Source: Sediminimonas sp.
GTDB lineage: Bacteria > Pseudomonadota > Alphaproteobacteria > Rhodobacterales > Rhodobacteraceae
Direction of reading: 5' to 3'
Assembly (NCBI RefSeq): GCF_024637375.1
Contig: NZ_JAGXFK010000074.1
Location: 1 to 64,000 of the forward strand
DNA length: 64,000 nt
Under the pieces are notes generated by a model. That model made no database searches and was not told the origin of the DNA. It worked only from the letters and a program-made list of their open reading frames with translations. Position 1 is the first letter of the stretch. Every line of letters starts with the position of its first letter. The position numbers and the translations under genes were made by a program. Shown here one piece after another: positions 9,073-10,782 of the stretch.

Positions 9073-9373
9073 AACGGACACCATATATTGACATTCAGGC
9101 CGCATCCGGATTTTTCCCACGAATTCCCGAATTTTTTGATCTCGGCGGCGGATTTGCAGTGAAATCGCGCCCTTCACGGCCTGAAGACGGCCTTGACCCC
9201 GCGAATCCTGCACCGCGATTCGACGCCTGCCGCAGCCCGGCGCAGGCGTGTCCCATGGTTTCCCGTGTGGTATCTCGTGGGCGCGCTCGATTCCGCGGCG
9301 CAGCGGGGGCTTGCAGTTTCATCGCCAGCCCGTATCTTTCGCGCAACGGCTCGCCCCTCGCCCAACGGACCCC

Positions 9374-10006
9374 ATGTCAGATCATCTGCCGCGCCCAGAC
9401 GGCTTTGCCGGAAACGACAACCTCGAACGGTTGCTCGACCAGCTTGAAGCGGTCGGCCGGGGGCGCGCGCCGGACGATCCCGTCAGCCTTGGCGACATCG
9501 TCACGGCGCTCGGCACGCGGTCGTTCGGCGCGCTGCTGCTGGTGCCGTCGCTGCTGATCGTCTCGCCGCTTTCTGCGGTGCCGGCGGTGCCCACGATCCT
9601 GGCGGCGATGATCGGATTGGTCGCGGTGCAGATCATCCTCGACCGTCCGGCAATGTGGCTGCCGCAGGTACTGTTGCGGCGCAGCCTTTCGTGCCGGCGC
9701 CTGGTGCGGGCGCTCGAATCGCTCCGCCCGCTGCTCAAGCGGCTCGACCCCTATCTGAACGAGCGCATTACCGGGTTGACCGACCGGCCGGGCAACCTGG
9801 TCGCGCTGGTCCTTTGCTGCGTCATCCCGCTGATGATGCCAATCATCGAGTTCGTGCCCTTTCTGACCTCGGTCGTCGCCACCGCCATGGCGCTGTTCGG
9901 GCTGGGCATTTTCGTGCGCGACGGGGTGCTGATGCTGCTGGGCTACGGCATCCTGCTGGTCGCGGCGCTGATACTGTCCGGCACTGCGGTGCTTGCACTC
10001 GGCTGA
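9374..10006 (+). CDS. ExoD-family integral membrane protein
   Basis: A 210-residue protein matching the exopolysaccharide synthesis ExoD family in length and layout. It has a soluble N-terminal helical part (LERLLDQLEAVG, then DPVSLGDIVTALGTRSFGALLLVPSLL), an amphipathic middle with arginine-rich helices, and three to four hydrophobic segments to the C-terminus. ExoD was first described in Sinorhizobium as affecting exopolysaccharide production and alkali sensitivity; its biochemical role is unknown. The ATG at 9374 gives the family N-terminus but has no strong ribosome-binding site. It stands alone, divergent from mraZ. Confidence 0.8.
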   Translation: MSDHLPRPDGFAGNDNLERLLDQLEAVGRGRAPDDPVSLGDIVTALGTRSFGALLLVPSLLIVSPLSAVPAVPTILAAMIGLVAVQIILDRPAMWLPQVLLRRSLSCRRLVRALESLRPLLKRLDPYLNERITGLTDRPGNLVALVLCCVIPLMMPIIEFVPFLTSVVATAMALFGLGIFVRDGVLMLLGYGILLVAALILSGTAVLALG

Positions 10007-10118
10007 CGGCCCGCCCCCTTTCCACTTGGCCATACGCCCAATTTCGCGGCAGTTTGCACAAAAAATAGGTCAGGTCTTCATATGCATTTTCTGCATAGCA
10101 GCATTGCCGATCTGTCCA

Positions 10119-10146
10119 TTGTGCAACCGCAGAAACTACGTATATT
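10119..10146 (+). promoter_or_regulatory. Probable promoter of the DUF1127-sRNA transcript
   Basis: TTGTGC (10119-10124) and TATATT (10141-10146) with a 16-bp spacer, about 60 bp before the DUF1127 start. In Rhodobacter sphaeroides the corresponding transcript is driven by RpoHI/RpoHII under stress. This element resembles such promoters, but sequence alone cannot separate them from sigma-70. Confidence 0.5.
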
Positions 10147-10205
10147 CGATCTCAACAGGGCAACAAGATATCGCCCAAGCGAATTGTGACGAAAGTGAAA
10201 CGAAC

Positions 10206-10427
10206 ATGGCACACGTAACCGACATCCGCGCCCCGCGCTCTGCTCTTGTTGACCGGATCAGCGCGATGCTCAAGTCGCTGGCCGAACGGCACGCGCGCTA
10301 CGCCGCCTTCCGTGAAACGGTCAGCGAACTGTCCGAGTTGTCGGACCGCGAGCTTGCCGATATCGGCCTTTCCCGGACGCAGATCCGGTCGGTGGCAATG
10401 GAACACGCATACGGGCCTTGCGCCTGA
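10206..10427 (+). CDS. DUF1127 small protein (CcaF1-like)
   Basis: A 73-residue basic protein with the DUF1127 core in its second half, containing RYAAFRETVSELSELSDRELADIGLSR. In Rhodobacter sphaeroides the DUF1127 protein CcaF1 is co-transcribed with CcsR1-4 and acts as an RNA-binding factor that affects their processing. The same arrangement follows here: four CCUCCUCC-loop hairpins start 10 bp after the stop. The ATG is at 10206 with only a weak purine-rich upstream region (GAAAGTGAAACG). Expected regulation is by stress sigma factors, inferred from the family. Confidence 0.9.
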   Translation: MAHVTDIRAPRSALVDRISAMLKSLAERHARYAAFRETVSELSELSDRELADIGLSRTQIRSVAMEHAYGPCA

Positions 10428-10436
10428 TGCTGAGAA

Positions 10437-10471
10437 TCAGGGTTTCCTCTCCTCCTCCCCGGAAACCCTGA
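10437..10471 (+). ncRNA. CcsR-like sRNA hairpin 1
   Basis: Perfect 11-bp stem (TCAGGGTTTCC/GGAAACCCTGA) with a 13-nt pyrimidine loop containing CCTCCTCC, the anti-Shine-Dalgarno motif that defines the CcsR (cuckoo) RNAs. It begins 10 bp after the DUF1127 stop, so it is probably released from that transcript by RNA processing, as in R. sphaeroides. Confidence 0.85.
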
Positions 10472-10477
10472 GACAAG

Positions 10478-10511
10478 GCGGCGGCATCCTCCTCCTCCCT
10501 GATGCCGTCGC
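10478..10511 (+). ncRNA. CcsR-like sRNA hairpin 2
   Basis: An 11-bp stem (GCGGCGGCATC/GATGCCGTCGC, one G-U pair) encloses a 12-nt loop CTCCTCCTCCCT. The loop matches hairpin 1 in motif, but the stem sequence is different. This is the CcsR pattern of conserved loop and diverged stem. Confidence 0.85.
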
Positions 10512-10521
10512 GTTGGATACC

Positions 10522-10538
10522 GGCCCGGACACCGGGCC
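10522..10538 (+). other. Small GC hairpin between sRNA units 2 and 3
   Basis: Perfect 7-bp stem GGCCCGG/CCGGGCC with a 3-nt loop. It lacks the CCTCCTCC loop, so it is not an sRNA unit of the same kind. It may form the base of unit 2 or 3 or act as a processing signal. Confidence 0.4.
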
Positions 10539-10554
10539 AAACGAAATACGGCAA

Positions 10555-10578
10555 GCGCCCCTCCTCCTCCCTGGGCGC
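10555..10578 (+). ncRNA. CcsR-like sRNA hairpin 3
   Basis: A 6-bp stem GCGCCC/GGGCGC encloses the same 12-nt loop CTCCTCCTCCCT as unit 2. It is the shortest of the four stems. Confidence 0.8.
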
Positions 10579-10593
10579 AGGTCGTAGACAAGG

Positions 10594-10637
10594 ATCGGCG
10601 GCGCCCCCTCCTCCCTGGGCGTCGCCGATTTCTTTTT
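10594..10637 (+). ncRNA. CcsR-like sRNA hairpin 4 with intrinsic terminator
   Basis: A 13-bp stem (ATCGGCGGCGCCC/GGGCGTCGCCGAT) holds a 10-nt loop CCTCCTCCCT and runs into a T-rich tail at 10629-10637. It therefore serves both as the fourth CCTCCTCC unit and as the Rho-independent terminator of the whole DUF1127-sRNA transcript. Confidence 0.85.
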
Positions 10638-10782
10638 GCCGATCCGCTATCATCCCGATCATCATGAAGGTTCACCACCACGCCCCCGTGACCATTGGCG
10701 CAAGGGGCGTGAAGGTGGAGCGTACCGCCGGCGCGCGCGCAAGGCCGAAGGCAGCGCGCGACGGCAGGGCGTCTCCGGGTGT

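Follow-up and report, generated by a model that had tools for sequence, protein, structure and literature searches.

A CcsR-type RNA locus of Sediminimonas sp. with two A-B units and a conserved promoter block proposed as an LsrB/VtlR-type target

The locus at 10206–10637 of a 64,000-nucleotide stretch of Sediminimonas sp. DNA (contig NZ_JAGXFK010000074.1; the whole stretch is called the window) is a ccaF1-CcsR locus of the CIN1 or 'cuckoo' type, another member of an established kind, and we are highly confident that this identity is the best explanation of the locus as a whole. It adds one more CcsR-type array to those described and corrects the counting of its units. The kind of array is already known; the new element lies upstream, in a conserved promoter block, which offers a cheap and concrete test of what switches on this widespread stress-RNA locus. 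The source genome comprises 2.97 Mb in 98 contigs, with a completeness of 87.9%. The features, all on the forward strand, are as follows.

10081–10097, +: inverted repeat TATGCA-N5-TGCATA, 5' half of the conserved promoter block (sequence)
10092–10106, +: TGCATAGCAGCATTG (the box), proposed LsrB/VtlR-type recognition site (motif match, genome scans)
10119–10134, +: TTGTGCAACCGCAGAA, second conserved element, proposed activation site overlapping the -35-like TTGTGC
10141–10146, +: TATATT, putative -10 element (alignment of relatives)
10206–10427, +: DUF1127 gene, 73 aa, CcaF1-like (Pfam PF06568 match, alignment with 19 relatives)
10437–10471, +: hairpin A1, loop TCTCCTCCTCCCC, first half of CcsR unit 1 (repeats, folding, Rfam CcsR1)
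10474–10515, +: hairpin B1, loop CTCCTCCTCCCT, second half of CcsR unit 1 (repeats, folding, covariation)
10522–10538, +: motif-free 7-bp hairpin in the spacer separating CcsR units 1 and 2 (folding, spacers of other arrays)
10547–10586, +: hairpin A2, loop CTCCTCCTCCCT, first half of CcsR unit 2 (repeats, folding, Rfam CcsR1)
10592–10631, +: hairpin B2, loop CCTCCTCCCT, second half of CcsR unit 2, terminator stem (repeats, folding)
10629–10637, +: U-rich terminator tail TTTCTTTTT (sequence)

The open reading frame at 10206–10427 matched Pfam DUF1127 (PF06568) with 49.7 bits against a cut-off of 23.3. The run of four hairpins on its 3' side starts within 10 bases of the stop codon, and all four loops are open, each containing CCTCCTCCC, as seen by sequence, repeats and folding. 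A DUF1127 gene followed by four hairpins with near-identical anti-Shine-Dalgarno (anti-SD) loops, the last doubling as the terminator, had been claimed in a preliminary description of this DNA; the layout was confirmed by sequence, repeats, folding, shuffles and Pfam, and the terminator by the B2 stem being followed by TTTCTTTTT at 10629–10637. B2 was absent from the list of a terminator scan, which admits loops of 3–8 only. The four stems, described as unrelated in sequence, are not all so: the stems of hairpins 2 and 4, both of type B, have CGGCGGC in common.

A search of Rfam yielded no match reaching the gathering cut-off. The covariance-model search suggested in the preliminary description, with the region searched alone, found CcsR1 (RF02791) twice, at 10434–10516 (36.3 bits, E 4.5e-7) and at 10544–10633 (32.4 bits, E 6.5e-6), both below the family's gathering cut-off of 65.3 bits; ar14 (RF02344) was matched at 39.7 bits, likewise sub-threshold, and the E-values of the CcsR1 and ar14 matches spanned 4.5e-7 to 9.6e-6. 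Among the matches listed, 48 of 61 genomes (the source genome included) had CcsR1 at E ≤ 1 and 3 of 61 exceeded the cut-off, implying that the Rfam model is narrow. Weak CcsR1 matches also occurred in 6 of 14 control genomes, and therefore only low E-values were counted. Two genomes outside the family with such weak matches (G047, G050) had neither hairpins nor box in the stretches inspected, and a third genome (G045) had two hairpins and boxes with three mismatches only. The earlier CcsR family call was upheld by the sub-threshold CcsR1 and ar14 matches, the DUF1127 gene directly 5' and the same layout in relatives. Adjacent hairpins with CCUCCUCCC loops on variable stems and a short DUF1127 gene beside the RNAs, the marks of CIN1/cuckoo loci, were both found. 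A second array was not found in the source genome, where the other CcsR matches were weak (best E 0.022).

Twenty relatives had strong CcsR1 matches, and a DUF1127 gene lay 5' of the array in 19 of them, the exception being L012; named loci of the same layout, drawn from the best 80 of at least 104 confirmed DUF1127 loci, came mostly from Rhodobacteraceae records. The other two DUF1127 genes of the source genome have neither arrays nor boxes (best box: 4 mismatches). Several observations were made alongside. An ExoD-family gene lies directly 5' of the locus (window 9341–10003), and a DNA alignment of this region with the same-genus relative L020 was without clear similarity; from this alignment, the neighbour may be poorly conserved. 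At L006 (G009:C6), four DUF1127 genes alternate with CCTCCTCC hairpins in one stretch over the whole locus, as if gene and RNA pair had been duplicated jointly. CcsR-type arrays without a DUF1127 gene were seen at L190 (G032:C111), which has the box and the second promoter element, and at L012 (G025:C11, about 1425–1757, + strand), which has only the second promoter element; the gene seems dispensable or lost at both. Two records with DUF1127 loci, L029 (CP059262.1, titled Exiguobacterium profundum) and L084 (CP051228.1, titled Mesoflavibacter sp.), look mistitled; L029 has eight motif hairpins, and its DUF1127 protein shares 80% identity with the one at the array locus L001.

Upstream of the gene, the block shows the same order in most relatives, namely the inverted repeat, TGCATRGCAGCATTG, 12–13 bases, TTGTGCA-N2-TGCAGCA and then CCCATGTT or a TATATT-like -10. 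The second element of the window starts 27 bp 3' of the start of the first, and its promoter reads TTGTGC-N16-TATATT, many relatives having CCCATGTT in the -10 position, which we take to be RpoH-like. A sigma-70 scan gave no promoter. The inverted repeat is kept as YATGC-N7-GCAT in the aligned promoter rows; these 53 rows, which contain the window twice, were picked for both elements 27–28 bp apart, so that only the flanks (the inverted repeat and the -10) escape that selection. Comparison with L020 revealed 6 of 66 bases to differ at 10081–10146 and 68 of 222 in the DUF1127 coding sequence. Such striking conservation of the promoter, read from aligned sequences, suggests a regulator.

The VtlR-binding motif is given as CAATGCAGCCATGCA (PMC12595884). 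Taken as its reverse complement, this motif is one base away from the commonest form of the box in relatives and two bases away from the window box (13/15 identical), and the window box is one base off the published consensus GCAT-N3-TG-N3-T; a near-motif site 5' of the promoter, as belongs to an LsrB/VtlR regulon, is thus present with one departure from consensus. The source genome holds no further copy at 0–1 mismatch and 19 at two mismatches. With at most one mismatch, 65 sites were found in 61 genomes, compared with 6 for the reversed pattern. All 12 exact TGCATRGCAGCATTG sites of the 61 genomes lie 300–407 bp 5' of a CcsR match on the same strand, and one-mismatch sites precede a CcsR match in 12 of 40 cases within the family and in 0 of 13 outside it, both counts and the distances resting on 49 CcsR1 matches among those listed. 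The best CcsR1 scorer among the matches listed (G036) and G018 have no 0–1-mismatch box and weaker versions only, the version of G036, CGCATAGCTGCGTTG, conforming to the consensus. For the best 80 of at least 104 named DUF1127 loci, a box with up to two mismatches was present upstream at 31 of 35 loci with an array vs 3 of 45 without. Thirty box loci were examined downstream: the exact ones all had a DUF1127 gene and at least three motif hairpins (8/8), and 5 of 22 one-mismatch loci had a DUF1127 gene (one of these, L171, without an array), L190 having an array without the gene. The association of box and array may come partly from common descent. Separately, L171 (G037:C51:56272), outside the family, has its one-mismatch box before the array-less DUF1127 gene, as a VtlR regulon predicts.

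We consider it on balance probable that an LsrB/VtlR-type LysR activator, together with a sigma factor, acts at the two-part promoter site. A Bradyrhizobium LysR protein whose gene adjoins trxB (L131) served as query and revealed a homologue in the source genome with 271.8 bits and 47% identity, the next match there scoring 121.1 bits, and in the reverse search the query gene was the best match of this protein in the L131 genome. The orthologue assignment rests on these values and on one reciprocal best pair, all from pairwise searches. In two of three Rhizobiales genomes the best match of the Sediminimonas protein was the trxB-linked LysR gene; in the third it lay away from the trxB match. 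The helix-turn-helix region is nearly identical in the Sediminimonas and Bradyrhizobium proteins (LSQSAVSRQ, LFHRHARGLILTEQGE). The former has one cysteine and the latter two, so redox sensing may differ. Of the 37 family genomes, 25 were searched, and 23 of these (the source genome included) have one strong homologue (>255 bits); the two without a strong match are 58% and 85% complete, the latter (G024) having box and array. Conversely, G003 has an LsrB homologue and no CcsR match among the matches listed. A LysR gene beside trxB of the source genome was looked for and rejected, no LysR domain being found in the 10 ORFs tested around trxB; in the same-genus relative, the homologue lies beside a POR/DUF6537 gene, not trxB.

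A reading of the block as purely an RpoHI/RpoHII promoter, or as the site of another regulator, with LsrB uninvolved, deserves serious weight and is given a little less than an even chance. It would fit the RpoH-like CCCATGTT at -10 in many relatives, and is countered by the strong conservation 5' of the -35-like element and by the dyad, which is identical to the VtlR motif at 13–14 of 15 positions. For R. sphaeroides, an RpoHI/RpoHII promoter is described before ccaF1-CcsR, the passages concerned naming no LysR protein (PMC10253847). Against this stands the position of the dyad at about -61 to -47 of the presumed start, the LsrB site in the abcR1 promoter being reported at -61 to -49 (PMC8844928). 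VtlR/LsrB is reported to act in Brucella on DUF1127 genes and AbcR2, in Agrobacterium on abcR1 and a gene for a small protein, and in Sinorhizobium on AbcR1 and NfeR1, the NfeR1 promoter of S. meliloti having an LsrB site (PMC10746234); one account found the abcR RNAs unaffected in S. meliloti under its conditions (PMC7486931).

LsrB has been called unique to Rhizobiales, where lsrB is described as adjoining trxB (PMC11975290, 2025). We lean towards an LsrB/VtlR circuit, in which a redox regulator of the LysR type drives DUF1127 proteins and anti-SD RNAs, that extends beyond Rhizobiales, with an orthologue general in Rhodobacteraceae and ccaF1-CcsR as its main, perhaps only strong, target there. 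If LsrB control holds true, host-associated Rhizobiales and Rhodobacteraceae would share a single regulator-protein-RNA circuit, lsrB deletion phenotypes from either group could be interpreted in the other, and the LsrB/VtlR and CcsR literatures, so far separate, would be joined. No published tie of LsrB or VtlR to CcsR was found in a search that lay outside the core CcsR/cuckoo papers, which may note the block.

According to the mechanism we propose, the LsrB/VtlR-type activator would bind the two-part promoter site, and a single transcript would run from near 10153 to the B2 terminator and encode the CcaF1-like DUF1127 protein. Cleavage of its 3' part, of the kind seen in R. sphaeroides, would yield two A+B sRNAs parted by the spacer hairpin. 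Each sRNA would expose two CCUCCUCC loops, predicted to pair with GGAGG-type SD sequences of mRNAs, which may block translation or start decay, by analogy with the work of others on NfeR1 and ntrB. The protein encoded by the DUF1127 gene probably binds the RNAs and aids their maturation, as reported for CcaF1, which affects CcsR maturation in R. sphaeroides (PMC10253847).

The preliminary description had also suggested that the loops titrate ribosomes. By reasoning, this is unlikely to occur through pairing, since the loops, being of the sense of the 16S anti-SD itself, would instead base-pair with the SD sequences of mRNAs. That the hairpins are sponges, whose loops sequester CcaF1, Hfq or ribosomes without mRNA pairing, is improbable in our estimation. 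The many near-identical loops that one transcript holds (in relatives, about 6 pairs at most), the interaction of R. sphaeroides CcsR with Hfq (PMC8307010) and the effect of CcaF1 on CcsR maturation (PMC10253847) would suit a sponge; the anti-SD sense of the loop, which precludes pairing with the 16S anti-SD, speaks against it, as does NfeR1, which has the same motif and silences ntrB, this silencing being lost upon mutation of the motifs (PMC10746234).

As possible targets, 67 GGAGGAGG sites outside the array were collected; they fall in 66 stretches, where double counting of overlaps gives 72 occurrences. Placement 3–12 nt before a start codon with at least 60 open codons was found in 20 rows, corresponding to 19 distinct sites. 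Seven of nine candidate targets checked had a Pfam match: IGPS, NAPRTase, acyl-CoA dehydrogenase, two alpha/beta hydrolases, a molybdopterin-binding domain and phage Mu GemA. In our judgement, some sites look false, being of low complexity or intragenic, and the genes are a candidate list only, the control words being too few for a judgement. The phage Mu GemA-like gene region (L254–L256, G000:C79:25920-30620), with GGAGGAGG before start codons, is possibly a resident Mu-like prophage.

With regard to the number of RNAs, the Rfam CcsR1 model covers two hairpins, and RS0680a of R. sphaeroides is presumably the old name of CcsR1. RS0680a is reported to consist of two stem loops, each with the anti-SD motif (PMC3927594), and four CcsR RNAs are reported for R. 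sphaeroides (PMC10253847). Because the CcsR1 model and RS0680a each comprise two hairpins, the window is, on sequence criteria, composed of two CcsR-type units (A-B, A-B), not four, half the R. sphaeroides number. The preliminary description had equated the locus with the ccaF1-ccsR1-4 layout, the number of sRNAs included; the order of DUF1127 gene and array stands, and the number does not, two hairpins making one CcsR. By a crude rule, hairpins with GCGGC-like, strong stems were classed as B and the rest as A in 56 loci (the window, 35 named loci and 20 relatives, among which named and unnamed loci may overlap in species). Strict A-B alternation was found in 35 of the 56, the window being ABAB. 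The comparison of copy number across relatives proposed earlier gave about 1 to 6 A-B pairs in this set, set against two in the window and four in R. sphaeroides; L020 also has two units, its A2 having been missed by the finder and revealed by alignment.

Inter-unit spacers usually fold. In 107 distinct B-to-A spacers of 20–70 nt from 43 loci (34 shorter or longer ones were left out), the mean folding energy was -11.8 kcal/mol vs -8.3 kcal/mol for shuffles, with a median z of -1.6, below -1 in 83/107 and below -2 in 36/107. The 'extra' motif-free hairpin of the preliminary description is present at 10522–10538 and is not peculiar to this locus; as 83 of the 107 spacers beat shuffles by more than one standard deviation, it is a usual part of such arrays. 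It perhaps sits at the cleavage boundary between units and may flag where they are cleaved apart. Four independent one-hairpin sRNAs, as implied earlier, would agree with the likeness of the four loops, processing being a prediction only in this DNA; the A-B alternation, the structured B-to-A spacers and the two hairpins of both the CcsR1 model and RS0680a (PMC3927594) make this reading very unlikely, and it was rejected on the stem loops of RS0680a and the alternation.

Selection on the loop had been proposed in the preliminary description, with loops drifting as freely as stems in close relatives named as the contrary outcome. Between the window and L020, the anti-SD core loops changed at 0 of 32 bases, whole loops at 2 of 47 and stems at 14 of 106, which supports selection on the loop in a small sample. 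Covariation was assessed on 30 of 55 B1 hairpins chosen for similar loop length (L057 gave no B). Where rows were anchored on CTCCC, loop columns were invariant partly through the anchoring, and these were not used. In 29 distinct rows, all 261 of 261 cells of a 9-pair helix, taken from the very alignment tested, were paired, and 37 cells were changed on both sides vs 6.7 in shuffles; slid controls showed 24–82% pairing. The number of further pair types, one of five measures, stayed at the level of the shuffles (11 vs 10.0, reached by 153 of 500). From the B1 covariation, the hairpin structure is judged to be under selection. In arrays pre-selected for at least two such hairpins, 236 of 262 CTCCTCC runs lay within stems; outside arrays, this applied to 0 of 18 runs on the same strand and 0 of 4 on the other.

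The minimum-energy fold of the array was -108.2 kcal/mol (z -7.1), a value as low being reached by 0 of 200 shuffles. The four CCTCCTCC hairpins observed compare with none in 1992 and one in 8 of 2000 dinucleotide shuffles of 10428–10640, and a search of both strands of the window with an unchanged stem threshold gave no further CCTCCTCC hairpin. An origin by chance or as a low-complexity CCT repeat, which the short pyrimidine repeat of the motif might suggest, is of negligible probability and was rejected given the shuffle counts, the folding z, the B1 covariation and the conservation within the genus.

Compared with known systems, the locus resembles ccaF1-CcsR1-4 of R. sphaeroides in the DUF1127 gene directly 5', the tandem two-hairpin RNAs, the CCUCCUCCC loops and the terminal terminator; it differs in having two units (there four) and TATATT at -10, and it scores under the Rfam cut-off of CcsR1, the family of the R. 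sphaeroides RNAs. The R. sphaeroides system is further characterised by co-transcription, RNase E processing, Hfq binding and induction under stress. With NfeR1/ar14 of Sinorhizobium meliloti it shares CCUCCUCCC loops and a promoter with an LsrB site, reported there and proposed here; NfeR1, by contrast, is a three-hairpin RNA with its own promoter, and the passages describing it mention no DUF1127 gene (PMC10746234). The VtlR/LsrB regulon of Rhizobiales is alike in its LysR regulator, GCAT-N3-TG-N3-T site, and DUF1127 and sRNA genes; lsrB lies beside trxB there and elsewhere here, where LsrB control is a proposal. From Cuckoo/CIN1 (Reinkensmeier and Giegerich 2015; via PMC10253847, PMC10746234), with its adjacent hairpins of the same loop, variable stems and DUF1127 neighbour, no essential difference was noticed in the accounts given there, and the window locus is a member.
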